DNA of 64,000 nucleotides from Heliocidaris erythrogramma (lineage: Eukaryota; Echinodermata; Echinoidea; Camarodonta; Echinometridae), in NCBI GenBank assembly GCA_025617745.1, contig CM046861.1:12548516-12612515 (forward strand), given 5' to 3'. Under the pieces are notes generated by a model. It did not search any database, had not been told where the DNA came from, and worked only from the letters and a program-made list of their open reading frames with translations. A program made the position numbers and the translations under genes. How positions within the stretch are numbered: position 1 is the stretch's first letter; every line of letters starts with the position of its first letter. This document shows, piece after piece, positions 8,590-64,000 of the stretch.

Positions 8590-9500
8590 TTTGCTTGCTC
8601 ACTTCGCTCGCTCAAAAAAACACTGGAAAGCTATTATTCGGGCAAAAGGCGTCCTCCTTCGGCATTAGGCTGCAACCCCCCCCCCCCCCCCCCCCCCCCA
8701 CCCCCGAGGTTTTCAAAGTTCCGATATTCGGGCAACCACCACTTCATATTCGCCCATATTCGGGCAGCGGATTATGTAACCTCTGTACATTTTCTCTACG
8801 AAATTTTTTTAAAAATTTGCTCAAAAAAATTGAAAAGTTGATATTGGGTCAAAAGGACTGGTGTCCCCCTTCGGCAATTGACTGCAGCCCCCTCCCCCGA
8901 GTATTTTCAAAGTTCCGATATTCCGGCAGCGAAGTGAGGTGCCAGAATATCCACATATTTGGGCAGCGAGGTTCCCCGATAATAATATGTAACTTCTCTT
9001 TTCTTTACGAAAAGTCTTTAAAAATTTGCTCGCTCGCAAAAAATTAGAAATTGAAAAGTTGATATTCGGGCAAAAGTTGTCCCCCTTCGGCAATGGGCTG
9101 CAGCCTCCCTCCCCCGAGGATTTCAAAGTTCCGATATTCGTGCAGCGCAGTGAGGTGTCAGAATATCCACATATTTGGGCAGCGAGGTTCCCCGATAATT
9201 ATGTAACTTCTCTTTTCTTTACGAAAAGTCTTTAAAAATTTGCTCGCTCGCAAAAATTTAGAAATTGAAAAGGTTGACACTCGGCCAAAAGTTGTCCCCT
9301 TTCGGCAGTGGGCTGCTGCCTCCCTTCCCCGAGGATTTTCAAAGTTCCGATATTCGGGCAAGCACCACTTCATATTCGGGCAGCGAGGAGCCAGAATATC
9401 CACATATTTGGGCAGCGAGTTTCCAAGATAATTATGTAACTTCTGTCTATAAATTTTCACTAAGAAAAGTTTAAAAATTTGCTCGCTCGCTTCGGTCGCT
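8590..9500 (+). repeat. Tandem array, ~215-bp unit
   Basis: Seen: about four units, each with TTTGCTCGCTCGCAAAAA, a GAAAAGTTGATATTCGGGCA block, a CTTCGGCAATGGGCTGCAGC block, a run of C followed by GAGG, TTTTCAAAGTTCCGATATTC, and CCACATATTTGGGCAGCGAG. Unit starts lie near 8590, 8815, 9025 and 9240. Diverged or inverted pieces occur at 15505-15600 and 16420-16545. Open frames crossing this region on both strands come from the repeat. Confidence 0.85.
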
Positions 9501-9504
9501 CACC

Positions 9505-12500
9505 AAGCACCAAGCACTCCAGATTCATTATATTGTACTGCATACCAATTTGTTCTTCATTCATGGATATGGATGATATATTAAATGATGAACTATTTAA
9601 TTCCCAGAGCAAATACTACACTGCAAAAGAATTCATTTCTACTTTTAATTCAACAAACCAAAATGGTAAACGAAATTTTTTCAGCGCAATACACATAAAT
9701 ATCCGAAGTTTGCAAAAGAACTTTGATACTTTCAATGAATTTTTATCTATATTAAATTCATTTCCTTTTTCTGTAATAGCTTTGACAGAGACATGGTTAC
9801 ACTCAACGACCCCTCCCATATTTGATATCGAGAATTACACATTTAACCATATAGATCGCAAAAATGGTAAGGGAGGCGGTGTGGCGTTTTATATTCACAA
9901 TAATCTGCATTATAAAGTGAGGCATGATATTATAATTAACGGCGTAGAAACCCTATTTATAGAAATTATTGACGATAACTATAAAAATAAAATAGTCGGT
10001 GTAATTTATAGACCACCAAACAACATAGCTGATATATTTTTAGATAAATTAGAATCATGTCTTGAAATCGTATCTCGAGAAAACAAAGACATTTACCTCA
10101 TGGGTGATTTTAATATAGATCTCTCTCTACCTTACACTGCCCTTGGGCAACATTTTACTAATTTATTATTATCATTTTCTTTCAAACCTCTTATTGACAA
10201 ACCTACGAGGATTACAAATACAACACATACAATCATTGACAACATTTTCTCAAACGTACTGAGTACAGATGGTAATGGAATAATATATTACGATATCTCA
10301 GACCATCTACCAATTTTCACGATATGTTCAGATAATAAACGCTTACATCAACATTCAAATAAAGAACGCATTACTCGACGAAAAGAAACCAAACGCAACA
10401 TAGAGTCCCTAAAAACAGATTTGAGTACAGAAGGATGGCAAGATGTTTTTCATGAGACAAAGGCTAATAATTCATATGAAATATTTATAAACAAACTTCT
10501 TCATTATTATGATAAAAATGTGCCTCTGACAAGAATAACTTCCAGCAAAAAGAAGAATAAACAACCGTGGATCACTCAAGGAATAATAAAATCAATATTT
10601 ACTCGTAATAGATTATATAAAATATCACTTAAATCACCTACTTTGGCACATCAAAACAAATATAAAAAATACCGTAATAAGCTAACTTCTATTATCCGTT
10701 TAGCACGAAAATCATATTTTTCTGACAAAATTGAAAGCAATAAAGACAATAACAAAACATTGTGGCATACAATTAATGAAATGTTAGGTAAAAAAAGAGA
10801 AAATGTACAAAATGTTGAATTATTAGAGAATGGAAATTACATTAAAGACAATGGTCTTATTGCTGATGCATTTAATACATATTTTACCAATGTTGGCCCA
10901 AAATTGGCCTCAAAGATTAATACTAATGATAATGATTTTTCACAATATCTAAATAATCATACCGAGCACTCATTATTTTTTAATCCGACGAATGTTCATG
11001 AAATTTTAGAAATTGTTCGATCTCTAAGTCCTTCTAAATCTAGTGGCCATGATGGAATAAGTGTACATCTTTTAAAACAAATTATTCATTTCCTGGCTTC
11101 CCCGCTGGCACATATTTTCAATCTATCTCTTTCCCAGGGAATTTTTCCTGATTCACTAAAACTTGCCAAAATAATTCCAGTATTTAAAAAAGATGACCCA
11201 TGCCTTATTGCAAATTATCGCCCAATCTCGTTGTTACCAAGCTTTTCTAAAATACTTGAAAAAATTGTTTACAAACGTTTATACTCTTTTTTGGATATGA
11301 ATAAACTATTAATTCCCAACCAATATGGCTTCAGAAAAAATCATTCGACTGACCACGCAATTTTACAACTGTACGACAAAATAACTGATTCATTTTCAAA
11401 AAAGGAGCACACTGTTGGGGTTTTTATGGATTTATCGAAGGCATTCGATACAATGGATCATGCTATATTATTATGTAAATTAAAGACATATGGCATCAGA
11501 GGGATCGTACTTTCCTGGTTTAAGGACTACTTAGATAATAGACGTCAATATGTTAATTTCAAATCCAAATCATCTATTATATGTACTGTGAAATGTGGAG
11601 TACCACAGGGCTCAATCTTAGGGCCCTTACTGTTTTTAATATATATGAATGATATTGTCAATGCATCACCTTTACTAACATACGTTTTATTTGCAGATGA
11701 TACTAACATATTTTATTCACACCAAAATTTAAACATGCTTGTTACAACTCTGAATCTAGAACTAAAGAAATTATCATTGTGGTTTAAATCCAATAAACTC
11801 TCCCTCAATATAAACAAAACAAACTTCACGTACTTTAAACACATTAATTCTACACATGTATTTCGCAATAATATTTTCATTGATGACATGCCCGTTACTG
11901 AAAAACATGAAACAAAATTTCTAGGTATATTGATCGACTCAAATGTAACTTGGAATAGTCACGTTCGTAACATCAGCATGTTGGTAGCAAGAGGCATAGG
12001 TATTTTATATAAATTGAAATATTATCTTTCTCAAAGATCACTATTAATGCTCTACAATTCATTTATTTTGTCACATATATCGTACTGTAACATAGTATGG
12101 GGAAATAGTAACAAAATGAATATAGACACTATCTTGCGTCTTCAAAAGAAAGCACTCCGTATCTGTTCTCATTCTCATTATTTAGCCCACACCGATCCTA
12201 TATTTCATAAGTTTAAAACATTGAAAATTAACGATATTCACACCTACCAAACTGCTATATTTATGTATAAATTTTCCACCAACGCTACACCAATATCCTT
12301 TCATAATATTTTTATCTACAACAGAGATGTCCATTCCTACCCGACACGACATTCATCAGATCTTCATTTAACAAATCCAAAATTAATAATAGCTCAAAAA
12401 ACGATAAGATATCATGGTCCAGATGTTTGGAACAATTTACCTCATGATATTAAACACGCCGTATCTCTTTTTTCTTTTAAAGCTTCGTTAAAGAAGTATT

Positions 12501-12925
12501 TGCTATCCACTTATTTGTAAACTTCTCACTTGCACACTTTTCACTTCCACACTTTTCACTTCAATCCCTTTCCTTCCCCCTTTCCCCTTCTTTTTGTAGT
12601 AAGAAATAATTTTTTTTTTCAGTTAGTGACATCGCTTTTATGATATAGACATTTTATATTAATTGTGCTTTCCATGTAACCCTTTCCACTGGCTGCTATT
12701 CATTCAAGCATTTTGCTTAAGATAGCTGGCCCCTGCATTTCTGCCATTTCTACTTGTTCATTTCGATTTATAATCATGTCTTTATTCTGTTGTCATTGTT
12801 ATTTAACTGTCACATTTGTAATTTGAACAATTATGTTGTATATTTATTACTATAATTGTTTGTAAATCTGTTATTTGATTTGACAATAAATGCAGAAAAT
12901 CCTGCTTTGCAGGTTGTTAAAAAAC
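9505..12925 (+). mobile_element. LINE (CR1/Jockey group) inserted in the tandem array
   Basis: Seen: the array stops near 9500 and resumes near 12935 (ATTGAAAAGTTGATATTTGG), so the LINE lies inside one array unit. Its body is a single uninterrupted EN-RT frame followed by a ~400-base 3'UTR ending in ACAATAAATGCAG. No ORF1 or long 5'UTR precedes the frame, so the copy is either 5'-truncated or from a family with one ORF. Target duplication was not resolved because both junctions fall in repeated sequence. Confidence 0.85.
9563..12520 (+). CDS. LINE endonuclease-reverse transcriptase
   Basis: The frame is open from 9479, but the first 28 codons come from the flanking array, so I place the start at the ATG at 9563 (MDMDDILND). 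The numbering here counts from 9479. N-terminal apurinic-type endonuclease: NIRSLQKNF (~71), ETW (~104), GDFNID (Asp at 210), SDHLPIF (Asp at 275). Reverse transcriptase: YRPISLLPSFSKILEK from 580, SKAFDTMDH (Asp at 657), GVPQGSILGPLLFLIYMND, and FADD (catalytic Asp pair at 740-741). The C-terminal domain has AHTDPIFHKF and ends KASLKKYLLSTYL. All expected catalytic motifs are present and no stop interrupts about 1000 codons, so the copy could be active or recently active. It acts by nicking target DNA and reverse-transcribing its own RNA in place. Exact clade (CR1, Crack, L2 or related) not determined. Confidence 0.92.
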   Translation: MDMDDILNDELFNSQSKYYTAKEFISTFNSTNQNGKRNFFSAIHINIRSLQKNFDTFNEFLSILNSFPFSVIALTETWLHSTTPPIFDIENYTFNHIDRKNGKGGGVAFYIHNNLHYKVRHDIIINGVETLFIEIIDDNYKNKIVGVIYRPPNNIADIFLDKLESCLEIVSRENKDIYLMGDFNIDLSLPYTALGQHFTNLLLSFSFKPLIDKPTRITNTTHTIIDNIFSNVLSTDGNGIIYYDISDHLPIFTICSDNKRLHQHSNKERITRRKETKRNIESLKTDLSTEGWQDVFHETKANNSYEIFINKLLHYYDKNVPLTRITSSKKKNKQPWITQGIIKSIFTRNRLYKISLKSPTLAHQNKYKKYRNKLTSIIRLARKSYFSDKIESNKDNNKTLWHTINEMLGKKRENVQNVELLENGNYIKDNGLIADAFNTYFTNVGPKLASKINTNDNDFSQYLNNHTEHSLFFNPTNVHEILEIVRSLSPSKSSGHDGISVHLLKQIIHFLASPLAHIFNLSLSQGIFPDSLKLAKIIPVFKKDDPCLIANYRPISLLPSFSKILEKIVYKRLYSFLDMNKLLIPNQYGFRKNHSTDHAILQLYDKITDSFSKKEHTVGVFMDLSKAFDTMDHAILLCKLKTYGIRGIVLSWFKDYLDNRRQYVNFKSKSSIICTVKCGVPQGSILGPLLFLIYMNDIVNASPLLTYVLFADDTNIFYSHQNLNMLVTTLNLELKKLSLWFKSNKLSLNINKTNFTYFKHINSTHVFRNNIFIDDMPVTEKHETKFLGILIDSNVTWNSHVRNISMLVARGIGILYKLKYYLSQRSLLMLYNSFILSHISYCNIVWGNSNKMNIDTILRLQKKALRICSHSHYLAHTDPIFHKFKTLKINDIHTYQTAIFMYKFSTNATPISFHNIFIYNRDVHSYPTRHSSDLHLTNPKLIIAQKTIRYHGPDVWNNLPHDIKHAVSLFSFKASLKKYLLSTYL

Positions 12926-19136: not shown

Positions 19137-19311
19137 TTAAAGGTCCCCTTTTATGGAATTACAAAGGAACTTCATTTAATAGACTTTTCTACTGTGAATC
19201 CAGATCTGTCAATCATATTACCTGAATTCCATTCATTAATCTGTAACCTTGAAAATAAAAAAATAACTGGGAACGCCCCTAAAAATTTTGGAAAATCGGT
19301 CCAGCGATCGA

Positions 19312-19329
19312 TGACGTCATGTGACGTCA
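19312..19329. promoter_or_regulatory. Two CRE-like sites, left subterminal
   Basis: Seen: TGACGTCA at 19312-19319 and again at 19322-19329, ahead of the ballast-like exon. Family knowledge: TGACGTCA is the palindromic CREB/ATF site. Inference: part of the promoter of the transposon's plus-strand gene. Confidence 0.45.
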
Positions 19330-19478
19330 CCCACAGAACGCTCGACTCTACACAAGCTGGATCAGTATCGATGTGTGTGTTATGGCTATTGAGCTTCGTG
19401 TAGATCTCTTCGACTTCGTGCCATTTCAGCCCTTCATTTTAGCTTTTTAAAGACAAAATCCTACATCAACGATGGCAT

Positions 19479-19695
19479 CATCTTCTTCAGCCAGGACACT
19501 TATTCAGGATCAGATATATCTGATTTGGAGCATCAAGTCCCAGAAGAAATTGAAGAGGAATTAGGGGCCCGGCCGTATACTATGTTTGAGCCATGCAGAC
19601 ATGTCGGATTCTGGGCAAGATTCTGATGATGACAGAGACGTCCCTGATTTTAATAACGGAGAGGATATCGACGGGAGACTTGGGAATAACAATTG
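19479..19695 (+). pseudogene. P2X7-ballast-like gene, exon 1 (frameshifted)
   Basis: Seen: three partial frames in succession. One begins with an ATG near 19472 (MASSSS). The second reads SGSDISDLEHQVPEEIEEEL followed by GARPYTMFEP. The third reads DSGQDSDDDRDVPDF and GEDIDGRLGNNN and ends at a donor-like TTG|GTAATT. An acidic leader with a RPYMFEP-like motif is, from memory, typical of invertebrate proteins annotated as P2X purinoceptor 7-like. At least two frameshifts separate the pieces. The exon expected next, with the CxCGxC and CC zinc-binding cysteines, was not found between 19696 and 20073, so this gene is broken. Confidence 0.5.
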
Positions 19696-20073
19696 GTAAT
19701 TATTTTTTGATAATAAATTACCGATTAAAGTTTAATTCACGCATATCCACGTATTATGAATCTTGTTTACGCTTGCAAATTGCCCGAGAGGCTGAGCTGA
19801 TAGAGGCAGTGAGCTCGATGTGCGCAGGGCCGGGGTACACGCCGCGCCGTTTGGTTGTTCGCCTGCTGACCCTGCCTGGGCTTGCGCTTGGGCAGTTTTA
19901 CTGGTGCATGGGGTGGTAGCGTTTGATTCTAGTAAATTCTAACATTGATATCCAGAAAACTCTTAGCTCTCCTGTTATCTTGCTTGTTTTCTTTGTGCTG
20001 CTACACTAAGTAAGTGTAGGTACCGTTATAGTTGACAATAGATATGATCTTCTTCTTCTTCTTCTCCACCCAG

Positions 20074-20180
20074 GGTTTCATCCAGTGTGTCTGCATGGAG
20101 CGGTATGTGATGGAAACTGCTTACTATTTGTATCGACAGCAGTATGGCGGACAGGCAAGGCAGGATGCAACTGAAAATCA
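20074..20180 (+). pseudogene. P2X7-ballast-like gene, internal exon
   Basis: Seen: a pyrimidine-rich tract and CCACCCAG acceptor, 35 codons plus two bases, and donor CA|GTGAGTAC. It reads GFIQCVCMERYVMETAYYLY then RQQYGGQARQDATENQ. Family knowledge: this resembles the part of the P2X7 intracellular C-terminal (ballast) domain that follows the CIT motif, where a VL(S/N)RxVL...LYxQ pattern is found. It carries none of the ion-channel part of a P2X receptor. The exon itself is open, but its phase (0 in, 2 out) fits neither neighbour directly, so flanking exons are missing. Confidence 0.6.
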
Positions 20181-20591
20181 GTGAGTACACCATATTTTTT
20201 GTTTTAATCCTTACTGCAGTATTCCTGTATTATAAAGCAGTTTGGATGCAAAATGCCAATTTGGCTCCTTATGAAATTAATATTACGATATTCTATAAAA
20301 GAAAATAATGTTTTAGCCTTAATGTAAATAGAGGAAGATTATTCTATTTGCAGTGTACATGTATTTTCTTGTCCTATGTGCAGATTAACGTTTGTTTCCT
20401 CTTTCCCCATCACAACATTTTACACTGCGGTGTTGACAACTAAATTATTAGCTAATCTTCTATTGTTTATTTGTGAAGTTCAAAGTAAAAGTTACCTCAC
20501 TATCACCTACATCATAGACTACACTGTGCATTGTTTTGAAGTTGTCTAATCATAGTTTCCTTTGTACTCTTTAAAAAAAAATCTTTTATAG

Positions 20592-20680
20592 GAAAGCTAG
20601 GAAAGCTAGGCAGGGCAGGACGTGTTCCTCTCCCATCTTGTGCCGTGACAAGAATCCGTGCAGCATTTCCATCAGAACCA
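20592..20680 (+). pseudogene. P2X7-ballast-like gene, terminal exon, cut by repeat
   Basis: Seen: after TTTTATAG the frame reads GKLGKLGRAGRVPLPSCAV then TRIRAAFPSEP. A 9-base tandem duplication (GGAAAGCTA twice) makes the GKL repeat. Family knowledge: LPSCxxxxIRxxFPSE is the signature near the C-terminus of the P2X7 ballast domain. The expected final residues (a YxGF motif) are replaced by a GGCGGATCCAG MITE fragment starting at 20682, so the C-terminus is lost. Supports a decayed gene inside the TTAA-bounded element. Confidence 0.65.
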
Positions 20681-20681
20681 T

Positions 20682-22279
20682 TGGCGGATCCAGGGGGCAC
20701 AGCCGGCCCGGCCCCCCCCCCCCCTTTTGGAAGAGAAGTATGATTTTTTTGTTGTTGCTTGTCAGGGAATTATGGAGGGGAAACTGGACCCCAATAACCC
20801 CTTACTGAGCGATTTTTGAAGGTTTGGCGAATTTCTTTTTTTGCCCCCCCCCCCCCCCCCTCACTGAGCGACTTTTCGAGAAGCTGGCGAGACCAGAAAA
20901 ATACGGGTCTACCTTTTGACAAACTTTAATTTTTGTGCCCCTTCTTTTACTCAATCCTGGATTAGAACAGATCAGGGGCTTTGAAGAGGCGTAGACCTAC
21001 ATACAATTTTGCTGTTGATATCTTTTCCCCCACCTTGTCAAGATCTATATTTACAGAAAAATAAATATTATATGTTTTACTTCCACCTTATTACTGAGAT
21101 TTTTATTACTGTTCTAAGATAGATTTTCAAAGATAATTTTTTTAAATTGGAAATATTCCCTGCATTTTACCTATTTAGGGTATTTTCTTTTCAAAGTTTA
21201 CTGTATGTATATATAATTTTTTAACCTTTGCAAAAAATCAAAAGGGAGGGCAGCTCCGTGGAACTTTAATTTAAGCTATGCAACCATTATTCTCATAATT
21301 TTTTTTACTGGGGCTTGGATATGACATGCACAAATCTCAACATTATGCAAAGGTGATAGTAGAATTGAACATTTTAAAAATATTTATGTATCAGAACTGT
21401 TGTTCCATCAGTGTAAACATTTACACAAAGTCATTATTTGAAAGAAAAAAATATTCAGTACTAATGACTGGCAAACATCTTTTATTTAATCGGGTCATTC
21501 ATGTGATCATCATTATTGTTGCTTCACATCATATTTCTTTTCAAATTTACATTATTTTTTCTACAGATTTTTTTTTTCTTCTTTCATTTGATTTATTGTT
21601 GTATTTATTATTATGTTGGTCTAGTTGTTAACTTGATAACGCTTAGATAGCATATACATTTATCATGTATATAACTGTTTATAAGAAATGTTAAAAATGC
21701 TAGTACGTCATTGTTCAGTCTGTCTTTTCATATTTAATTCCTATACATGGATATCAGTTGGGTTTATTACATGAGGGTGTGCTACACTGTGACAATGTGG
21801 TAAAAATTTTATTGCTGTTTTTGCTTCAAGTATCAGAGGAAAAGAGGAGTCTAGGAGGCTTATTTTGAATATTCATTTTCACTGTCAGAAATAAAATTGG
21901 AATTGGGTAACTGAGTTCACATCTAAGTATTTGCCCAGAGCATTTTTTGTAATTGATGTTGTAAAGATGCATGTATCTCAGTTAAGAATGATAACTCTAT
22001 TGTTAATGGCATATGAGGTCTGTTATTTTTTATGGCATTTGTTGTTTAATTTGTTAATGAAACACACTTTGGAAGCTAATCAGTTTTGTTTGTTTTGTTT
22101 TATGTTTTTTTTTGGGGGGTGGGGGTGGGCATTCTCCTATTGAATTTTTGATGTTCAATTGTAAGACAACCATTTCCTGGATACAACATCTATATCTACA
22201 TTTCTCCAGAAGTAATAATATATTTCAAATCAATTGAATATTTTTGTCATCTCTGGAAGAGCTCAAACACATTTACTAT
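20682..22279. other. Transposon interior without recognised coding
   Basis: Seen: a fragment of the GGCGGATCCAGG MITE with C-runs (20710, 20848), then AT-rich sequence. No transposase motif was recognised on either strand. Confidence 0.4.
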
Positions 22280-22895
22280 GCAAGGCTTGTCGTGAATGAA
22301 ACTAACAATTGAAAAGAAAGGTGTGAGTGCGTGAATGAGATCAAAACCAACAATTGGCAGAATGGAAAAAGAAAAAAAAAAGAGAGATAAAAAGTTGAGA
22401 GGAGATGTGTGTAATTGGAGAATATTGGGCAAAAAGAAGGAGAAAGGGAGACAGAAAGCACAAGAGAAGAAATAGTGAAAAAGAGAGGGAATCACTGGGG
22501 GAAAAGGGAGAGATAAAAAAGTTGAGGGAAGATGTGTGAAAGTGGAGAATTTTGGGCATAAAGAGGGAGAAATGGAGGGAAAGCACAAGGGAAGAAATAG
22601 AGAGAGAGGGAATCATTGGGGAAAAAAGGAGAGATAAAAAAGTTGAGGGAAGATGTGTGAAAGTGGAGAGAGAATTTTGGGCATAAAGGTTGAGAATTTT
22701 GAGCATAAAGAGGGAGAAATGGAGGGAAAGCACAAGGGGAGAAATAGAGAGAGAGGGAATTATTGGGGGAAAAAAGAGATACAAAGTTGAGGGAAGATGT
22801 GTGTAAGTGGAGAATTTGGGGCATAAAGAGGGAGAAAGGGAGGGAAAGCATAAGAGAAGAAATGGTGAAAGAGAGAGAGGGAATCATTGGAAAAC
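22280..22895 (+). repeat. Purine-rich minisatellite, unit ~90-120 bp
   Basis: Seen: five or so units sharing GTTGAGGGAAGATGTGTG, GGAGAATTTTGGGCATAAAG, AGGGAGAAATGGAGGGAAAG and GAGAGAGGGAATCATTGGGG. Serine/proline-rich frames on the minus strand here are by-products. Confidence 0.85.
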
Positions 22896-23077
22896 AGATT
22901 TTCTGTCAAATGAACTACATGTATAAGGTAGAGAAGTAGGAATCAACCTGTAACTGTGATGTATACCCCTTTTTCCTGCCGAAGGAGGGGGGGGGGGGGG
23001 GGGGGGTTGTAGGTTGAAAATTGCCAGTTACATTTTCACTACATTCAGGGTGGTAACAAAAATCAATATTAAATATA

Positions 23078-23258
23078 CGGTAGAAACTTAGTATAACAAG
23101 GTCCTTGGGACTATTAAAATTACCTGGTTAAATCCAGAATCTCGTTATATCAGTTTAAAAAAAAAAGAATATAAAGAGTTGAGACCAAAATATTGCCTTG
23201 TTATATCAGGAATATTGTTGTATCAGACCTCTTTATACTGAGTTTCCACTCTACCATG
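23078..23258. mobile_element. Small pogo/Tigger-like MITE
   Basis: Seen: GGTAGAAACTTAGTATAACA at the left is loosely complementary to the right end (TTTATACTGAGTTTCCACTC). Family knowledge: GTAGAAAC-CTCG-TATAAC ends are typical of pogo/Tigger-type MITEs with TA targets. Target duplication not clear. Confidence 0.45.
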
Positions 23259-23409
23259 ATAAACATTTTTATAACACTCTTTATGGAGAAAGATCTTTTT
23301 CTTCATCAAGAACAAAAAATAGTAAAGACCAATTGAGAGAGGTGCTTGTGAGGTTAAGCTCAGAGTCGCCAAATTTCATATTATTGATACATGTATGATC
23401 AAACTTGTT

Positions 23410-23646
23410 TCAGGGACGGCCTCTTCTTGATGCCATACGCAGCCCCGTGCTATCGACGAAGTCCTCCGCACAAAAGTGCTCGGAGCACACAACACTGTGC
23501 TCACTCGGCCCCTTCCAATGGGCGCGAGTTAATTTTACTTTTGCGGTCCATTTCCTTCTTATATTTGGGTCTTTAGGGAATAAATGTAGACTGACACCCT
23601 CCTTTGTGGTGTTACTGCAACCTGCAACAACGCAGCGTTGCGGCAT
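23410..23646 (-). CDS. THAP-domain exon
   Basis: Minus strand, start placed at MPQRC because THAP domains begin at the extreme N-terminus with M-P-x-x-C; an upstream in-frame ATG (23742) adds residues unlike the family. Seen: Cys5 and Cys10 of the C2CH zinc site (CVVAGC), a FPKDPNIRRKW segment, a second conserved Trp, and VCSEHF with the final Cys and His, followed by an acidic-aromatic pair (EDF). The frame is open for about 79 codons and ends STGLRMASRRGRP. The family's terminal AVPT-type motif is absent, so a downstream exon is missing or the frame has decayed; no clean donor was identified. THAP domains bind DNA and occur in P-element and Kolobok transposases and in host factors. Its position just inside the right end suggests the N-terminus of a transposon protein. 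Confidence 0.75.
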   Translation of the reverse strand: MPQRCVVAGCSNTTKEGVSLHLFPKDPNIRRKWTAKVKLTRAHWKGPSEHSVVCSEHFCAEDFVDSTGLRMASRRGRP

Positions 23647-23752
23647 ACTTCGCTTTAGAGGTGGTTTTCGAGGTGGTATACACAACAGAAAGTTAGTTTG
23701 CACATGTAATACATAGGCAATATTGTAAACAAGCATCGGCAATGTCGGTTTG

Positions 23753-23760
23753 TGACGTCA
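23753..23760. promoter_or_regulatory. CRE-like site, right subterminal
   Basis: Seen: TGACGTCA about 203 bases from the right terminus and just upstream of the minus-strand THAP exon, mirroring the two sites at the left end. Confidence 0.4.
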
Positions 23761-23967
23761 CACGTCAATCATGCTCGCGGAACGCGAATTCGGGGTTTAA
23801 AAGGGGGCGGAGCTTAGCAGACTGTTTTGGACATGAATACATGGGGGAAATATTATTTTAAAAATATTTTGATACGTATTTATTGCAAACGGATGTGATT
23901 TTTCAATTTAGATGAGATGCATGTACAAAATACCAAGAATTATAATTTCATAAAAGGGGACCTTTAA

Positions 23968-38243: not shown

Positions 38244-39117
38244 TACTGAACTACAAAAGAAACGTCGCACTTTTCAAATTGATATCTTTTACACATGATA
38301 TTGGAATTTGATACGTAAAATCACATTTTATGCTTTTTTAACATCACAGATATGGCATTGACCGTCCATAACACATGATCATAACAAAATGTGATTTCTG
38401 TGTAGGATTAAAACTCATATCCTTTCCGTGAACATGGTAGTGCACTCGTGCGCAGCTTTTTGAAAAGCATGATGCACATGCACATCCTCTATCCAGTGGG
38501 TTTAAAAGGGACTCAAAACCTTCATCCTGTCATTCGTTTCCTGAGCGCTGTCACCATGCCACGTCTGACTCAAAACCAGAGGGAACAAGCCATCGGACGT
38601 CTTCATGCTGGCCAACGTCCTAGAGTCATTGCCAACGACTTCAATGCAGCGTTCGGACAGTAGAGAGACTGCGGGAGCGATACAATGCAACCAACAGCAC
38701 CAACGATCGTCAGCGCAGTGGTCGTCCCAGGGTGAGATCGCCATCTTCACCGGGACCACTTGCAGGATCGCTTCCGCAGAGCAACAGAATCGGCTCTACA
38801 GACTATTGGCACACACAACAGACCAATTTCTGCAGCAACTGTTCGTCGTCGGCTGAGAAGCTTCAACTTGTCTTGTCGGCGTCCTGCTCGGGGCCCTATC
38901 CGCACCGTTCGACATCGTCGGGAACGTCTCCTGTGGGCCCAACAACGTCAGAACTGGCGCTATCAACGACGAGAGTCGTTATTGCACATCTGTACTTGTT
39001 AATCAAAACAAAGCAAAACATTTTCTCAGTTTTCACTCTTGAATAAAGAATATGTTTCATTGTAAATAAAACAGTTTCAAACACATACATGTGCGACGTT
39101 TCTTTTGTAGTTCAGTA
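38244..39117 (+). mobile_element. 874-bp Tc1/mariner-type transposon inserted in an EGF exon
   Basis: Seen: the left end TACTGAACTACAAAAGAAAC and the right end are exact complements for at least 27 bases (through CGTCGCAC). TA lies outside each end (38242-38243 and 39118-39119), the Tc1/mariner duplication. Without the insertion and one TA the host reads GTAGAAATAGATCCATGTGC, identical to the start of the preceding EGF exon. Internally it carries a decayed transposase. The perfect ends suggest a fairly recent insertion, while the broken frame suggests it was mobilised in trans. Confidence 0.92.
38556..38995 (+). pseudogene. Decayed Tc1-like transposase N-terminal half
   Basis: Seen: starts MPRLTQNQREQAIGRLHAGQ, the first helix-turn-helix of Tc1-type transposases. 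After a frameshift the next frames give SGRPRV, then DRFRRATESALQTIGTHNRP, ISAATVRRRL and RGPIRTVRHRRERLLWAQQR. These cover the bipartite DNA-binding region only. The DDE catalytic domain is deleted, so the copy is non-autonomous. Confidence 0.8.
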
Positions 39118-55995: not shown

Positions 55996-57246
55996 TGTTT
56001 CCGTGAAACAATACTTTTTATTAATGAATTTCAAGAACACCATATTTTTGTCTTCAAAGACACCGTAAATTTCCCAGGTTACTTTGCAGCCACAATCCCC
56101 GACGATGAAGTAGTTGGTTTGAGTTAGAGAACAGCAAGTTTCTCCTGATTTTCTGATAATTTGCGAGGCTAATATCGCCCAAAGAGTAAGTAACATGAAA
56201 GTTAAATATTTACATTCAATAATGATGTGAAAAAGAGAGAAATTTGATAAATCTGAGTTCAGATGTTTTAAGATCAAAGTTTGATGTCATAATTATGAAT
56301 TACACAGAGCCATCATTAATGTGTTTACTACGCTACATATTTTAGCGTTTGAAGAGTGTCGATTTCATAAACAAAGAGTGAAATTGTCTATTTTGCTTGA
56401 TAAGTTTAAGATTCTAAGAGTATAGAAATTGAGATACAAAACAAGAAGTTTTGATTTAAGCTATGTCAAATAGTTGTAGTTGTACAAGCTACAAGATTAT
56501 TTTGAAAGTCATTTGTGTTTTTAAAAGGTTTAAATTATAAATTAGGCTCACATGTACATGTATCTATTACTAGTATTAGGAAGGTACAATGTAGGCAGAA
56601 CAAAAGAATGCCTAAGATAAAGGCTGAATGTTTATAAATTAAAACTGTCATGCTGCATTATGCATGAGTTTGGTTTAGATATTTTGGTCACGGTGTAAGT
56701 CATTTGCGAAGGTCATATTTCATTTCAATCAAAATGTATCTGAAATTTCTGGATGAATTAATTTATTGGATTTTATACTTTTGGGGTTCGATCTATGCAC
56801 CTTTCAAAACAATCATGACTGATAGCAAGCCATTAGAATATTCAATGTAATTATCATAAACCGTGTAAGAGGTTTTCAGGGTTAATTAGTGCATAAGCAT
56901 GCTTTGTGTGTTACAATTATTGTTCGAATATACAAAAGAACTATTTCTTGAAATTATGCTTTAATGAGCAGTTTAGGTTATGTTGCCAATCCAAGCTAGA
57001 TTGAGTATTTTACATTCAGAAAAAGTATTCACTTGAAAGGTTGTACATTGAAAGTATTTCAAGGAAATGTTGATTTTGAAGTCAACTTGCTGATTTAAAA
57101 TATTTCTTGTAATGAAGTAACTACTGACACAAAAAAGTCAGACATGACAACTGATCATTGCTTGAAGTAATCTGTTTATTATGAGACATGATACATGTAT
57201 TAGAGCATTGCACTAAACAATGCGTTTCTCTCTGTTTTCATTACAG
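55996..57246 (+). repeat. 5' LTR of the BEL/Pao element
   Basis: Seen: begins TGTTTCCGTGAAACAATAC; identity with the 3' LTR proves at least 55996-56995. The right edge is a guess: TTTTCATTACA at ~57245 would give the usual TG...CA ends, giving an LTR of about 1250 bases. A primer-binding site was not identified. The first ~280 bases carry an antisense open frame. Confidence 0.7.
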
Positions 57247-57569
57247 ATTGAATGATTTGGAAGGGAGTTCACCAATAAACTTCCATCCCATACAATATGC
57301 GGTGTTAGCCTTATTTATTGACCCCTTCTGTGACTTCAATGATCCATCGATTCAATTCTTTGATGCTGTTGCGGCCAGCTATGAATTCTTCAGCATCAGT
57401 CTGCTAACCAGTTCCGGAATCTTCTGATTCAACCTGCTAACCTGGGATCGAAGTACAGAAGGACGCTTTTGTTGAGTCAGTTACTCAACTCTACTCAGCT
57501 ACCAAGAAAAACCTAAGCCTTAAGAGATCCATCTTAGTCTGCTTACCTGGGACCCCTGAAAGATGAACC
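57247..57569 (+). other. Leader between 5' LTR and gag-pol
   Basis: Seen: an open but domain-free stretch to 57427 and imperfect direct repeats of CTGCTAACC(T)GG near 57402, 57435 and 57540. No tRNA-complementary primer site recognised. Confidence 0.45.
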
Positions 57570-60500
57570 ATGACAGAGGCAAAGAATTTACAGAGTCTAA
57601 AGCTGCAACGACGTGCTGGAAAAGCAAAGCTGACCAGATACGGGAAGGTAGTTGTCGATCTACTAGAGTCACAACAGCCTATAGAAAAAGTGAGAGAAGC
57701 ATTTCAGAAATGTGAAGTGACATTTACAGAACTCGAAGAAAAGCATGAAGAATACACACTCTGCATAGAGGATGATGATGAGTTCAACAAAGAGGAAGGT
57801 TGGATGATTGATGTCCAGAAATACTTCACTGAATTGCGGCTTGAAGTAGATAGCCATGGTAGCAGTGGCCTCTCTTCGGACAGCACCGTTAACCAGACAG
57901 TGCCAGAAGGTAATAATCAGCAACCTTCAAATCATGTTCCCGTCGACAATTCAGAGTCCATGTTCAAGCTAGAGAAGATGAAGTTGCCGAAATTCAAGGG
58001 TGATGTTAGGGATTATCACCTTTTCAAGACAGATTTCCTTCATCTTTCTAGGTCATACTCAGAAAGAGATACAATCTCTCTGCTTCACAACTGCCTAGAA
58101 GGAAAGCCTGCAGAAATGTTACGTGGAGTTACAGACACTGGAGCTGCGTGGAAGTTTTTGGAAGCAGTCTATGGTGACAAGACGTTTCTAGTAGATGCTG
58201 TGATAAACGACATCAACTCCTTCGAAGGATTGCGAGAAGGTGAAGATATGAGATTTTGTGAATTCTCACAGCTAATACTCAGGAGTTATAATATTATCAA
58301 AGGAGTGGGACGCACCCAGGATATTGATAATGTACAGATGTTGTCAACCATAGAAAAGAAATTGAACATGGAGGACAAAAAAGAATGGTTCAGGTACCTC
58401 AATTATAACAAGTATGACTCATCCTTGCCTGTGCTGATGGACTGGATGACGGATGAAATGACTGCACGTATCAGAGCAACTGCTCCACTCAGATGCAGTA
58501 ACAACAGCAGTGGTAGTAAGCAGAAAGCTTCAGTTCATCATGTAAAGTCGTCATCAAGTCGGCCTTCATTCCACAAGTGCTGGTTATGTGAGACGTCTAC
58601 TCACTGGATTGATCAATGCAAAAAACTGATCAGTATGCCCCAACCTGAAAGACTGCAAAAGATGAAAGACGGTCATGCCTGCTTCAGTTGCCTGAAAAAA
58701 GCAGGACGAGATCATCGATCTTCTAACTGTCAGAGAAGGAGAAGATGCACCGAATTAGTTGAAGGGCAACAGTGTAAATACTATCACCACCCACTTTTGC
58801 ATAGTGAACCAGAGAATAATGCCGTTGGAGTTGCTTGTGTGAGCAACACGAGATCATTGCTTCCTGTCATCACATGTCAGATTTTGAGTGACGACGCACA
58901 GAAAGAGGGTAATGTCTTGTTCGACTCTGGGGCCCAGATCAGCATAATAAAGCAGTCTGTAGCAGATGAGTTGAAGTTAAAAGGAAGGAAAACTACCATC
59001 AACATAGTTAAACTGGGCCAAAGAGAAGAAGAACTTCAGACTTACATGTACAAGGTACCTATAAGAGCCCTTGACAAACAATCTGTTTATACCATCACTG
59101 CAGTTGGGCTCCCAAGTATCAATGATGTTGTGGATGAAATACAGATAGGAGACATTGCTGCGGATCTCAACCTGAAGGAGAAGGATCTAAATAGGAGTGG
59201 TGGAGCCATTGATCTCCTAATAGGTACAGACCATCCCAGATTTCATGTTGGAGAGACCAGAGAAAGTACATGTAACAGGTACATTGCTAGGAAATCTCCT
59301 CTAGGCTGGGTCTTATTTGGAGGCAGACCATCAGATGAAAGGCATGCTGCAGTTTTCCATATCAAAATGGCAAACCCAGTTAATCTAACAGACTTTTGGG
59401 AAACTGAAGCAATGGGTGTAAAGTACAACGATTGCCAGTGTGATCCTATTCACATGACCAAGAATGACAGAGATGAGTACAATGCAATCAACAGTTCCTG
59501 CGAGAAAGTTGGAAACCAGTGGAGGATTCCTTATCCTTGGAAGAGAAATCCTCAGTCTTTGCCAAACAACAGAACGCAGGCAGAGAAGGTATTAGAGTCC
59601 ACAGAACGGAGATTGATGAAGGATCCAAGCCATGCTGATGCTTATAACAAGCAAATGGTAGAAATGGTAGAAATGAACTTTGCAAAGAAGCTCACGGAAA
59701 ATGAGATGGTGTCATACAAGGGTCCGATTCATTATGTGTCACACCATGCAGTGATAAAGCCTGAGAAGAAAAGTACGCCAGTTAGGATTGTCTTCAATTC
59801 GTCGGCCACTTACCAAGGCCATATCCTCAACGACTACTGGTTGAAAGGCCCTGACTTGTTGAATAGCTTATTTGGTGTAATGCTCCGGTTCAGAGAGAAT
59901 GCAGTTGCTGTTTCTGGAGATATTTCCAAGATGTATCATAGGGTCCTTATCCCGCTAGAGGATCAACATGTACATCGCTACCTGTGGCGCAATTTGGAGA
60001 CTGATAGGCCACCTGATGTCTATGTCAAAACTGTTTTGACATTTGGAGACAAACCCTCACCTGCGATGGCACAGATTGCACTACGACGTACAGCAGAAGA
60101 GGGAGAGAAAGCACATCCCGAAGCCAGTCGTATAATCAAAGAGGATGTCTATATGGACGACATCTGTTTCTCTACCCAAAGCAGAGAACTTGCTGTACAA
60201 CGAACCAGAGAAATAGATGATGTGTTAGCTAAAGGAGGCTTCAGAGTAAAGGGCTGGTCGTCTAATGAAAAGCTGACAGACAAGGACCATCAGAAGCCAG
60301 ATGGTAAGGGGTTACTAGAGTCTGTTACTGAGGAAAAAGTCCTAGGTGTTGTGTGGGACCAGCACAAAGATGTCTTCACATACAAGGTGAAAGAAAGCAT
60401 CACAGGCAATGAGACACAATCCAGACTAACAAAGAGGAAAGTCTTGAGTAGGATTGCCCAGTTATTCGACCCTCTAGGCTTTGCATCTGCTTTTCTGGTA

Positions 60501-62681
60501 AAGGCAAAAATAGGTATGCAGAGACTTTGGCAAATGGGACTCAACTGGGATGATGAGCTTCCAGCAGATGAAGAGAACAAATGGTTGTCTCTGTTCGAGG
60601 AAATGAAAGGTCTGAGGAACGTAGAGCTGGACAGATGCTTAACTCCTCCTGCAGCAGTAGAGAAACCAACACTGTGCTCATTTTCAGATGCTTCAGAATA
60701 TGCATTTGGGGCATGCATATACATGAGATGGCAATTGCAGGATGGAAGGTTTGAGACCAGATTCGTAACAGCCAAATCTAGAGTCGCACCACTGAAAAGG
60801 TTAACAGTGCCCAGGTTGGAATTACAGGCAGCTGTTATGGCTACAAGACTCATAGCATCAGTGGGAAAGGAGCTGAGAATGACTGTAGAAAAGACAATCT
60901 TCTTCACCGACAGTATGATTGTCTTATCATGGATAAGAAGTCAGGCAAGAGTGTTTAAACCCTTTGTATCAGCTAAAATTGGAGAAGTGCAAAGCAGCTC
61001 TGACCCAAGTCAGTGGAGACACATTCCAGGGGCCCTGAACCCGGCTGACGACTTATCAAGAGGTATATCGGTCAACCAGCTGGATGACAGATGGAAAACA
61101 GGGCCAGAATTCCTTTGCCTGCCAGAGGAACAGTGGACAGGAGATGAACTACAGGCAGATCTTCATGCTGGAGCTGAAGAGAGACGTAATGCTAAAGTAG
61201 TCATGCATGCAGCAATCCCTGAAGTTATTGACTGCACAAGAGTATCCAGCTGGAAGCGACTCCTAAGAATAACAGCGTATGTCTTCCGATTTACTCAAAT
61301 TCTAAAGAGCAAGATCCAGAAGAAGGCTATATCAGATGACAAGTTAACTCTTACACCTGAAGAACTGAGTAAAGCTGAGAAGTACTGGGTTACTCGAGCA
61401 CAACTAAGTCTATTACCCAGATATGAAAGAGGAGAATTCAAGGTACTGACTCCCTTTCTTGATGATGAAGGTGTGTTGAGAGTAGGTGGCAGAGCAGAAA
61501 ATCTGATGACGTCATATGAATCCAAACATCCAGCTCTGCTCCCATCGAATCATCACGTGTCATTTCTAATCACCAGACATATGCATGAACTAGGCCATTA
61601 CGGCATTGCCACAACGACTGCTAAAACTAGGAGAAAGTTTTGGATTCTACAGGGAGCAAAACTGGCCAAGACGATAAAATTCCAATGTGTTGTGTGCAGA
61701 AGGAATGATCACAAGAATGAAACACAGATGATGGCGGACCTTCCGAATGTAAGAGTTGCTCCCTTCACACCGCCATTTCATTTCACTGCCATCGACTACT
61801 TTGGACCAATATCAGTTAAAGTGGGCAGAAACAAGACAGCAAAATACTACGGAGTAATATTTACCTGTCTTAATACGAGAGCCGTTCACCTCGAGTTAGC
61901 TGTCGATTGTACAACTATGGAATTCATACAAGTCCTGAGAAGGTTCTACTCGGTACGAGGGCAACCAGCTAAGTTGCTCAGTGACAATGGCACCCAGTTC
62001 ATCGGGGCTCAGCGAGAACTACGCGAGATGGTCCGTGGCTGGAGCGAGACTGAGCTGAGAGACTTCTGTGCTGAAAGGGGGACAAACTGGCAGTTTTCCA
62101 CCCCCTCCGCACCACATCAAAATGGCTGCGCGGAGTCACTCGTCAAGTCATGTAAAATTGCACTGAAGAAAGCTGTTGGTAACCAAACTTTGACTCCGTT
62201 TGAGCTCTACACGTGTCTTAAAGAAGTAGCGAATTTGGCGAATCAACGACCAATTGGCAGGATACCAAATGACCCAGACAACGGTGCCTACCTTAGTCCA
62301 AATGACATGCTGCTAGGTAGATCATCGACAGCCATACCGCAAGGACCATTCAATGAATCACGAAATCCAAGACGTCGCGTAGAGTTTGTGCAGCAGATAG
62401 TCAATGCGTTTTGGAAATGCTGGAATAGAGACGTTTTCCCACTGCTAGTACCACGCAAGAGATGGAACACTCAAAGACGCAATGTACGCGTGGATGATAT
62501 TGTTGTGATCGCAGACCCCAATGCTATTAGAGGAAAATGGACTCTGGGTAGGGTAATTCATGTATATCCAGGGGCTGATGGACTCATTCGTAACGTCAAA
62601 CTAAAAACTGTGGACTCTGAACTGAGAAGACCTATCAACAAGATTGTTGTAATTTATCCCGCCGAAGGATATGAAGATTGA
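57570..62681 (+). CDS. BEL/Pao gag-pol polyprotein
   Basis: A single frame of 1703 codons. In order: an N-terminal coiled-coil-like region; the Gag domain with KLPKFKGDVRDYHLFK (from ~138); a zinc-knuckle region with CWLCETSTHWIDQC (337) and a later CFSCLKKAGRDHRSSNC; an aspartic protease with DSGA (452); reverse transcriptase with GDISKMYHR (Asp 784) and YMDD (861-864); RNase H starting SFSDAS (Asp 1040) with an ELQA motif and a TDS motif; an HHCC integrase zinc site; integrase catalytic D1409, D1472 and E1522 (AIDYFG, SDNGTQF, AESLVK); and a C-terminal DUF5641-like domain (VDDIVVI, WTLGRV). All catalytic residues are present. Product functions: capsid, polyprotein cleavage, cDNA synthesis and integration. 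The ATG is the first in the frame with an acidic start typical of the family. Confidence 0.95.
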   Translation: MTEAKNLQSLKLQRRAGKAKLTRYGKVVVDLLESQQPIEKVREAFQKCEVTFTELEEKHEEYTLCIEDDDEFNKEEGWMIDVQKYFTELRLEVDSHGSSGLSSDSTVNQTVPEGNNQQPSNHVPVDNSESMFKLEKMKLPKFKGDVRDYHLFKTDFLHLSRSYSERDTISLLHNCLEGKPAEMLRGVTDTGAAWKFLEAVYGDKTFLVDAVINDINSFEGLREGEDMRFCEFSQLILRSYNIIKGVGRTQDIDNVQMLSTIEKKLNMEDKKEWFRYLNYNKYDSSLPVLMDWMTDEMTARIRATAPLRCSNNSSGSKQKASVHHVKSSSSRPSFHKCWLCETSTHWIDQCKKLISMPQPERLQKMKDGHACFSCLKKAGRDHRSSNCQRRRRCTELVEGQQCKYYHHPLLHSEPENNAVGVACVSNTRSLLPVITCQILSDDAQKEGNVLFDSGAQISIIKQSVADELKLKGRKTTINIVKLGQREEELQTYMYKVPIRALDKQSVYTITAVGLPSINDVVDEIQIGDIAADLNLKEKDLNRSGGAIDLLIGTDHPRFHVGETRESTCNRYIARKSPLGWVLFGGRPSDERHAAVFHIKMANPVNLTDFWETEAMGVKYNDCQCDPIHMTKNDRDEYNAINSSCEKVGNQWRIPYPWKRNPQSLPNNRTQAEKVLESTERRLMKDPSHADAYNKQMVEMVEMNFAKKLTENEMVSYKGPIHYVSHHAVIKPEKKSTPVRIVFNSSATYQGHILNDYWLKGPDLLNSLFGVMLRFRENAVAVSGDISKMYHRVLIPLEDQHVHRYLWRNLETDRPPDVYVKTVLTFGDKPSPAMAQIALRRTAEEGEKAHPEASRIIKEDVYMDDICFSTQSRELAVQRTREIDDVLAKGGFRVKGWSSNEKLTDKDHQKPDGKGLLESVTEEKVLGVVWDQHKDVFTYKVKESITGNETQSRLTKRKVLSRIAQLFDPLGFASAFLVKAKIGMQRLWQMGLNWDDELPADEENKWLSLFEEMKGLRNVELDRCLTPPAAVEKPTLCSFSDASEYAFGACIYMRWQLQDGRFETRFVTAKSRVAPLKRLTVPRLELQAAVMATRLIASVGKELRMTVEKTIFFTDSMIVLSWIRSQARVFKPFVSAKIGEVQSSSDPSQWRHIPGALNPADDLSRGISVNQLDDRWKTGPEFLCLPEEQWTGDELQADLHAGAEERRNAKVVMHAAIPEVIDCTRVSSWKRLLRITAYVFRFTQILKSKIQKKAISDDKLTLTPEELSKAEKYWVTRAQLSLLPRYERGEFKVLTPFLDDEGVLRVGGRAENLMTSYESKHPALLPSNHHVSFLITRHMHELGHYGIATTTAKTRRKFWILQGAKLAKTIKFQCVVCRRNDHKNETQMMADLPNVRVAPFTPPFHFTAIDYFGPISVKVGRNKTAKYYGVIFTCLNTRAVHLELAVDCTTMEFIQVLRRFYSVRGQPAKLLSDNGTQFIGAQRELREMVRGWSETELRDFCAERGTNWQFSTPSAPHQNGCAESLVKSCKIALKKAVGNQTLTPFELYTCLKEVANLANQRPIGRIPNDPDNGAYLSPNDMLLGRSSTAIPQGPFNESRNPRRRVEFVQQIVNAFWKCWNRDVFPLLVPRKRWNTQRRNVRVDDIVVIADPNAIRGKWTLGRVIHVYPGADGLIRNVKLKTVDSELRRPINKIVVIYPAEGYED

Positions 62682-62984
62682 TTGTATATGTACAGTTGGG
62701 TTTTTTTGCGTAAGTTGAACTAACATTGATCAAAAGTTAACGTCTGATAACAAGGTTAACACATTTTTCTATGTTATCTTAAGTTTTTCTTTGCTCAGGT
62801 ATAGCTTGAATATTTCCTGAGTCAGGGTTATTTTCAAGGTTATTTTCAGGATCTCAGTTGATTCAACTTACGCAGGATTTGTTTTGTGTGTTTAATTTAT
62901 TAAGTGATATATGGTATAGATTAAGAAGTGTATAAGATGAAAAAAAAAAAAAGGATTATTCGAAAATTTTCAATTTCCCCTTTT
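62682..62984 (+). other. 3' untranslated part of the BEL/Pao element
   Basis: Seen: AT-rich sequence between the gag-pol stop and the polypurine tract, with an A-run at 62939. No additional open frame such as an envelope gene. Confidence 0.6.
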
Positions 62985-63000
62985 TTGGGGGCGGGGAGGA
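62985..63000 (+). promoter_or_regulatory. Polypurine tract
   Basis: Seen: a G-rich purine run (TGGGGGCGGGGAGGA) immediately before the 3' LTR TG, the usual plus-strand primer position. One C interrupts it. Confidence 0.75.
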
Positions 63001-64000
63001 TGTTTCCGTGAAACAATACTTTTTATTAATGAATTTCAAGAACACCATATTTTTGTCTTCAAAGACACCGTAAATTTCCCAGGTTACTTTGCAGCCACAA
63101 TCCCCGACGATGAAGTAGTTGGTTTGAGTTAGAGAACAGCAAGTTTCTCCTGATTTTCTGATAATTTGCGAGGCTAATATCGCCCAAAGAGTAAGTAACA
63201 TGAAAGTTAAATATTTACATTCAATAATGATGTGAAAAAGAGAGAAATTTGATAAATCTGAGTTCAGATGTTTTAAGATCAAAGTTTGATGTCATAATTA
63301 TGAATTACACAGAGCCATCATTAATGTGTTTACTACGCTACATATTTTAGCGTTTGAAGAGTGTCGATTTCATAAACAAAGAGTGAAATTGTCTATTTTG
63401 CTTGATAAGTTTAAGATTCTAAGAGTATAGAAATTGAGATACAAAACAAGAAGTTTTGATTTAAGCTATGTCAAATAGTTGTAGTTGTACAAGCTACAAG
63501 ATTATTTTGAAAGTCATTTGTGTTTTTAAAAGGTTTAAATTATAAATTAGGCTCACATGTACATGTATCTATTACTAGTATTAGGAAGGTACAATGTAGG
63601 CAGAACAAAAGAATGCCTAAGATAAAGGCTGAATGTTTATAAATTAAAACTGTCATGCTGCATTATGCATGAGTTTGGTTTAGATATTTTGGTCACGGTG
63701 TAAGTCATTTGCGAAGGTCATATTTCATTTCAATCAAAATGTATCTGAAATTTCTGGATGAATTAATTTATTGGATTTTATACTTTTGGGGTTCGATCTA
63801 TGCACCTTTCAAAACAATCATGACTGATAGCAAGCCATTAGAATATTCAATATAATTATCATAAACCGTGTAAGAGGTTTTCAGGGTTAATTAGTGCATA
63901 AGCATGCTTTGTGTGTTACAATTATTGTTCGAATATACAAAAGAACTATTTCTTGAAATTATGCTTTAATGAGCAGTTTAGGTTATGTTGCCAATCCAAG
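63001..64000 (+). repeat. 3' LTR of the BEL/Pao element (partial)
   Basis: Seen: begins TGTTTCCGTGAAACAATAC and matches 55996-56995 base for base except one noticed substitution. Cut by the window end. Confidence 0.93.

Follow-up and report, generated by a model that had tools for sequence, protein, structure and literature searches.

Kolobok DNA transposons of the Kol0 lineage are described as encoding KolX, a protein with the P2X7 cytoplasmic ballast fold, and it was proposed that P2X7 originated when a P2X4-like gene fused with KolX (Kojima & Bao 2022, PMC9587614). According to the same description, some piggyBac elements carry a protein similar to the KolX C-terminus, in which the cysteines are mostly missing. 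Compared with the P2X7 ballast and ZCD proteins as presented by Rump et al. (2020, PMC7016195), the KolX relatives align to positions 476-592 of P2X7 and share the conserved cysteines, but KolX differs from P2X7 in being a transposon gene without the channel part. In that report each species has fewer than 10 ZCD genes (one or a few), whereas at least 151 KolX exon matches were found here. Non-autonomous Kolobok families of Xenopus (T2-MITE and others, PMC6004289) are likewise reported to have amplified recently beside genomic Kolobok transposases; the element studied here differs from them in being 4.8 kb long and in keeping gene remnants, and the term P2X is absent from the main text of the Xenopus paper.

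With a probability of about 0.92, the copy in the window (the whole stretch of 64,000 nucleotides analysed) is non-autonomous and derives by internal deletion from a Kol0-type, KolX-encoding Kolobok DNA transposon. It resembles Kol0 Kolobok of the Kolobok-1_XT type (PMC9587614) in its TTAA, its 5'-RR ends and the KolX ballast fold, the likeness being to the description given by Kojima and Bao rather than to their KolX, transposase or Repbase end sequences. Related elements of the host genome also share pieces of the DDE transposase with Kol0, whereas the window family is internally deleted, its KolX is broken and only the THAP exon is left. What is new is the non-autonomous member; the link between KolX and the ballast was already published, as was the idea of a P2X fusion, which the original prediction had put forward as a possibility and which Kojima and Bao (2022, PMC9587614) had proposed.

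Termini, target site and copy number

The exact 15-bp inverted ends with TTAA on both sides, from which the original prediction started, were seen at 19141-23963, with exact AGGTCCCCTTTTATG at 19141-19155 (+) and 23949-23963 (-). With the TTAA flank counted in, the inverted match covers 32 nt at 94%. The termini read AGG..CCT, and the features stated for Kolobok were thus both found, namely 5'-RR / YY-3' termini and a TTAA target-site duplication (24/24 pairs).

In the 1.06-Gb host genome the AGGTCCCCTTTTATG 15-mer occurred exactly 500 times (246 + 254), and a reversed control 15-mer gave 0 + 1 matches, so the paired ends cannot be ascribed to chance. The first 100 of the 500 places yielded 24 head-to-head pairs, 2.3-9.8 kb apart, all of which were fetched. 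TTAA was observed outside both ends in every pair (24/24), which goes against the refuting condition that the two ends would never be paired, and all 24 had sequence in common with the window. One of them (L021) was similar to the window in its two end regions only. Two others (L016 and L017) were composites of two head-to-head copies each, and their outer ends therefore belong to different copies.

The window element represents a young non-autonomous family with hundreds of genomic ends, which are TTAA-flanked wherever they were read. In an alignment of 21 rows, made without L017 and with the composite L016 entered twice, 19 rows lay within 3.3% of the column majority, the other two being L021 (32%) and L016b (8%); the copies of the family are young. 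At a paralogous place both window flanks were found without the 4.8-kb element, together with ~200 bp absent from the window, and a clean empty site for the window locus was not found in the host genome.

Table 1. Features of the element and its target site in the window (a slash marks the exon end)
Feature	Position	Strand	Remarks
Left TTAA target-site copy	19137..19140		also in 24/24 fetched end pairs
Left terminal inverted repeat	19141..19164	+	first 15 bp exact
KolX exon 1 remnant	19472..19695	+	ATG to donor ATTG/GTAAT; frame broken inside exon
KolX exon 2 remnant	20067..20180	+	HPGF.. to ..ATENQ/GTGAGT
KolX exon 3 remnant	20592..20677	+	..RVPLPSCAVTRIRAAFPSE; without AYRQLVRWCW segment
Insert in KolX exon 3, ~280 bp	20678..20960		starts CCATTGGCGGATCC; right edge approximate in window
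KolX C-terminus remnant past insert	20975..20994	+	GFEEA + stop
Imperfect purine-rich direct repeats	22378..22903		spacing mostly ~118-147 bp
Transposase THAP-domain exon	23410..23646	-	3' end frameshifted
Right terminal inverted repeat	23940..23963	-	
Right TTAA target-site copy	23964..23967		also in 24/24 fetched end pairs

KolX remnants and the THAP exon

Pfam P2RX7_C scored 13.7 bits on the LPSCAV exon, below its cut-off of 23.5, and neither a Pfam search nor a PDB sequence search with the joined window exons gave a match. The intact relative P0001 was used for identification instead. The two ballast-like segments noted on the plus strand exist, and both match this one KolX protein; with the exons joined, the match is 51% across 99%. 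P0001 contains PF20478 (E 1.4e-16) and aligns to a P2X7 chain at 476-592 (E 1.6e-4); among the 41 structural matches of its predicted model, the top 14 were all P2X7 and the other 27 had E above 3. The proposed ballast profile search thus succeeded by way of P0001 and stayed below the cut-off on the window itself. The KolX ballast fold of the Kol0 lineage is accordingly represented in the window by remnants, the fold being that of the model of P0001. The nearest named KolX relatives were from Lytechinus, Diadema, Acanthaster and others, a weak hint at an echinoderm host, given that genes of transposons are able to pass between species.

Six of the eight cysteines that were invariant or near-invariant in an alignment of 35 proteins fall in the part of KolX deleted in the window family, and the window KolX lacks the conserved zinc cysteines of the P2X7 ballast. 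A query with the zinc part gave only chance-level matches in the 24 fetched pairs (best E 0.13). In exon 2 of the window the zinc-cysteine part is deleted upstream and a 4-bp insertion shifts the frame. The insert in exon 3 is flanked by an ATCAGAA duplication in the sister copy L023. An in-frame relative of the window exon 1 was found in L025, and sister copies such as L033, L035 and L063 keep open zinc-exon frames. Segments absent from the window survive in some other copies, which points to stepwise decay of KolX; the window gene lost its zinc part, gained the small insert and then acquired further frameshifts. As judged from its sequence, the window KolX, with the zinc part lost, the frame shifted and the exon split, is predicted to give no working ballast protein. 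In complete elements KolX would be a normal accessory protein. An open stretch at ~19790-19916 was common to many copies.

On the minus strand, the expected THAP domain was recovered with PF05485 (E 4.5e-14; 53.4 bits, cut-off 23.9). Of the features stated for the Kolobok domain (C2CH, P/W/F residues and an AVPTIF box), the THAP core was present. The element is of Kolobok type with a TTAA target, as had been suggested. The AVPTIF-type box was absent from the window THAP exon and from the in-frame copies examined; a box-like DAIPKIK occurs in L045 and L063. Two DDE-exon queries gave no match at E<=1 in the window and the 24 fetched pairs, both queries being from another family, so that they could miss a DDE remnant that is strongly degraded or divergent. 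The same two queries do match other families of the host genome. Because a DDE (C/DxxH) match is missing from the window and the 24 copies, the window element was not filed as an autonomous Kolobok. The description of it as carrying a gene goes too far: KolX is present in fragments, and of a transposase there is the THAP exon alone. Its longest internal frames are low-complexity repeat, and Rfam at gathering scores gave no match in the window. The end pairs L029-L032 were without a DDE match; a LINE-like frame was seen inside L029.

Related elements in the host genome and competing explanations

The KolX exon-level matches were scattered over the genome, many of them being single exons of dead copies, and KolX-bearing sister elements with ends nearly identical to those of the window occur among them. 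When 51 DDE hits were compared with 51 listed KolX matches, 15 KolX-DDE pairs came out, 14 of them no more than 10 kb apart and the other at 24 kb, and all of these (15/15) were on opposite strands and convergent. Since 37 of the 51 DDE hits lay farther than 10 kb from every one of the listed KolX matches, KolX is not established for every DDE element. In the related elements KolX lies on one strand at one end and the THAP-DDE transposase reads inward from the other; the window family keeps this order of KolX and THAP but without a DDE match. One of the pairs lies in a complete-looking element of ~12.2 kb between TTAA + AGGAACTACAG ends, which contains KolX, DDE pieces and THAP in the same order as the window, its THAP being 58% identical to that of the window. 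A DVWH (D-xx-H) motif occurs in a related, complete-looking element, and the piece that carries it has a weak sub-cut-off PF10551 match.

A search for an autonomous partner sharing the ends of the window element covered 100 of 500 + 100 of 114 ends and found none. Of the 51 DDE hits, 6 were on contigs from which no end is listed, and the smallest distance between a DDE hit and a listed end was 69 kb. The KolX exons of L063 are open; no DDE frame was found in its fetched stretch, its contig has no listed DDE hit, and a right end could not be located. The window element may have been moved in trans by the transposase of a related Kol0 element, which would use its THAP domain to bind the inverted ends and would cut and paste at TTAA.

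The open THAP core, the recognisable KolX exons and the TTAA flanks of the 24 pairs might suggest that the transposon is autonomous, with a ballast gene that functions and a THAP transposase. This is very improbable, given the missing DDE match in the window and 24 pairs, a KolX that is frameshifted and without its zinc part, and longest internal frames that are low-complexity repeat. It is hardly more than conceivable that a host ballast gene was joined by unrelated inverted repeats inserted by chance: Rump et al. (2020, PMC7016195) describe invertebrates, a sea urchin among them, as having stand-alone ballast genes, but the same exons recur inside the same ends at other loci, at least 151 KolX exon matches are spread genome-wide, and the KolX-DDE neighbours within 30 kb are convergent without exception (15/15). 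The view that the ballast-like exons are part of the transposon and not of a host gene was thus upheld by their recurrence in copies elsewhere.

A piggyBac element would also explain the TTAA target, and some such elements carry a KolX C-terminal-like protein, as is seen here in the KolX-like C-terminus. The ends, however, begin with AGG and so show the 5'-RR given for Kolobok, in contrast to piggyBac. A THAP domain is present, and the DVWH motif and weak sub-cut-off PF10551 match of the related complete-looking element also speak against piggyBac, as do the cysteines kept by the KolX relatives and mostly missing in the piggyBac versions (PMC9587614). No piggyBac Pfam match was obtained in the six window ORFs scanned, and we regard this origin as most unlikely. 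The internally deleted Kol0 derivative is the reading retained.

Transposon-borne KolX and its constraint

The transposon does provide the mobile route envisaged for the ballast domain, but the window copy is no working carrier and the idea had been published. On C4, paired TTAAAGGTTCCCTTTTATG ends at a distance of 8.4 kb enclose a match to each of the three KolX exons and nothing that matches DDE, with stops reported in two of the three KolX matches that may lie just past the exon ends. This would be an example of a transposase-free, KolX-bearing element. It is conceivable, though rather unlikely, that Kol0 elements here are able to shed the transposase while retaining and spreading the KolX gene, with KolX acting in trans. 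If so, transposase-free KolX elements would be a carrier seeding ballast exons in genomes, from which fusions such as P2X7 could be built. The results suggest that invertebrate stand-alone 'P2X purinoceptor 7-like' genes should be checked for a transposon origin before they are read as host genes.

The published attribution of the P2X7 ballast domain to Kolobok transposons gains support from one whole animal genome, because the KolX exons are genome-wide, TTAA-bounded where ends were read, convergent with DDE in 15/15 cases and constrained in exon 2. Between four families, dN of KolX exon 2 was 0.25-0.34, and dS was 1.97-2.0 for two of nine between-family pairs, the other seven values lying beyond estimation. 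This comparison shows that KolX exon 2 is under protein-level constraint between the four families.

The TTAA-bounded element and its copies

The element is bounded by inverted ends that are exact over 15 bp, with TTAA at either side. In the host genome (a 1.06-Gb assembly of 26 contigs, the window lying on contig C9), the exact 15-mer end was counted 246 + 254 times, against 0 + 1 for the control. From the first 100 listed of these 500 end places, 24 head-to-head pairs with a spacing of 2.3–9.8 kb were built, and all 24 were fetched. TTAA was found outside both ends in 24/24, which bore out the TTAA-flanked paired ends of the original prediction. All 24 pairs also shared sequence with the window, locus L021 in its two end regions only. 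L016 and L017 each contained two head-to-head copies, so the outer ends of each belong to two different elements. In the alignment, 19 of 21 rows deviated by no more than 3.3% from the column majority (L017 excluded), so the window family is young. Identical flanks were observed on contig C2 for L016 and L017, and for L022 and L023, indicating that these copies were duplicated along with their surroundings.

The minus-strand THAP domain proposed earlier was confirmed with an E value of 4.5e-14. In other copies (e.g. L012, L019, L022, L023 and L025) this frame stayed open slightly longer, ending KKRPSLKQV, and in L045 and L063 it continued to a box-like DAIPKIK; in the window copy it was already lost at the region where other copies stay open. 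Neither the window nor any of the 24 pairs gave a match at E ≤ 1 to two DDE-exon queries, although these queries came from another family and a much-decayed remnant could escape them. The same queries picked up the Kolobok-like loci L066 and L067 elsewhere in the genome at 46–60% identity, and recovered the loci from which they were taken at 100%. The element is a repeated unit, bounded by TTAA and retaining gene remnants, in which no catalytic core was detected.

KolX remnants on the plus strand

The two plus-strand segments originally described as ballast-like, together with a third one upstream, were found to be remnants of three exons of a single gene. The joined window pieces, used as a protein query, returned five proteins, 5/5 with PF20478, the Pfam domain of the P2X7 C-terminus. 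The best match was P0001, an intact KolX relative of 206 aa (51% identity, 99% of the query). P0001 scored E 1.4e-16 on PF20478, and aligned to residues 476–592 of a P2X7 chain with E 1.6e-4. Its AlphaFold model (mean pLDDT 76.7) gave 41 structure matches; the top 14 were P2X7 chains with E up to 1.9e-3, and the remaining 27 had E above 3. With P0001 as the query, 85 proteins were listed, P0001 among them, the named relatives coming from echinoderms, molluscs, nemerteans, corals and one fish. Window exon 3 alone fell short of the PF20478 cut-off (13.7 bits against 23.5), and the joined window exons gave no PF20478 score. These results count against the KolX reading, and the identity of the exons rests on the relatives. 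Through these relatives the exons could be assigned to a KolX-type gene, but the gene itself is broken in the window.

Compared with P0001 and other copies of the same genome, residues 79 to ~120 were absent in the window family. Eight cysteines were called invariant or near-invariant in a 35-relative alignment (C79, C81, C85, C96, C97, C117, C128 and C186), six of which fall in the absent part. Queried with this part, the 24 pairs gave chance-level matches only (best E 0.13). In the window's subfamily, KolX exon 2 had gained 4 bp, the AYRQLVRWCW segment was lost, and exon 3 carried a small insert starting CCATTGGCGGATCC. This insert was common to the window and the sister copies L023 and L025, and was therefore amplified along with the family; in L023 it was flanked by an ATCAGAA duplication, with the original C-terminus beyond. 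Segments lost by the window were still kept in L016, L017, L019, L022, L023, L025, L030 and L032, which suggests that the losses took place in an order.

KolX-bearing relatives and mobilisation

The P0001 search of the host genome gave at least 151 exon-level matches. Matches across the zinc-binding part were found at over 20 places, and some of them contained internal stops; among those read, the frame of this part was open in L033, L035 and L063. L063 begins TTAAAGGTTCCCTTTTATG, one base different from the window's end, and its end 19-mer occurred 59 + 55 times (control 0 + 0). In L064, of a different family, open KolX exons lay on one strand and a transposase piece (motifs ITDRH and DVWH) on the opposite one, the latter weakly resembling the MULE domain (PF10551; E 0.0011, short of that domain's cut-off). 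This piece had 51 matches in the genome. Against 51 of the listed KolX matches, these DDE matches formed 14 pairs at 4.9–9.6 kb and one at 24 kb, with KolX and DDE on opposite strands in 15/15, and 37/51 were without KolX inside 10 kb. A further KolX family was represented by L054, L055 and L056, which lie on C19, C1 and C3, are nearly identical and each have a convergent DDE match beside them.

For one KolX-DDE pair, two copies from different contigs were read out to both outer sides. On the left, starting at TTAAAGGAACTACAG, they were 99.2% identical over 238 bp, and on the right, finishing at CTGTAGTTCCTTTAA, 99.2% over 1415 bp and then 90.6% over 256 bp. The C8 copy of this complete-looking unit measured ~12.2 kb and had KolX left and THAP right, the window's order, and its THAP was 58% identical to that of the window. 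The first DDE exon of that unit retrieved 250 proteins; among the 120 listed, five had names, two mentioning transposase, two hypothetical and one called solute carrier. Across four families, KolX exon 2 had dN of 0.25–0.34; of the nine pairs that compare families, dS was 1.97–2.0 in two and outside the estimable range in seven (the tenth comparison, L063-L035, joins members of the same family). This pattern indicates constraint at the protein level.

The window element was probably moved by a related Kol0 transposase working in trans on its ends. With 100 of the 500 window-type and 100 of the 114 L063-type ends listed, and 45 of the 51 DDE matches on contigs with a listed end, the closest DDE match lay 69 kb from a listed end, so no transposase partner was pinned down among the listed ends. 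A paralogous place on C9 had both flanks without the 4.8-kb element; because it also had ~200 bp absent from the window, it does not qualify as a clean empty site.

Relation to the published system and other features

According to Kojima & Bao 2022 (PMC9587614), KolX of the Kol0 Kolobok lineage resembles P2X7 476–595 and takes the ballast fold, and P2X7 arose when a P2X4-like gene fused with KolX. The mobile-element route to the ballast domain and its P2X fusion, suggested in the original prediction, was thus already stated there. Rump et al. 2020 (PMC7016195) had earlier reported stand-alone ballast proteins; in Kojima & Bao's account (PMC9587614), it had not been noted before that these belong in Kolobok elements. 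Apart from Kojima & Bao, literature searches on this link turned up one review, with a single mention each of P2X7 and Kolobok. A THAP domain is described as usual in Kolobok transposases (PMC6004289). The window element accordingly ranks as a new non-autonomous member of this known system, the KolX-ballast link itself being already known.

Features located in the window
Feature	Position	Strand	Remark
Kolobok element	19141–23963		
Insert in KolX exon 3	20678–20960		
ORF with THAP domain	23410–23757	minus	
1018-aa open frame	9464–12517	plus	resembles LINE endonuclease/reverse transcriptase, by eye
Open frame	38624–39043	plus	like Tc1/mariner-type helix-turn-helix piece, by eye
LTR retrotransposon	55996–64000		BEL/Pao-like, by eye
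1704-aa open frame	57567–62678		between direct repeats

The 1704-aa frame lies between direct repeats with 99.9% identity across 1000 bp, of which the second extends to the window end; the LTR retrotransposon is very young.
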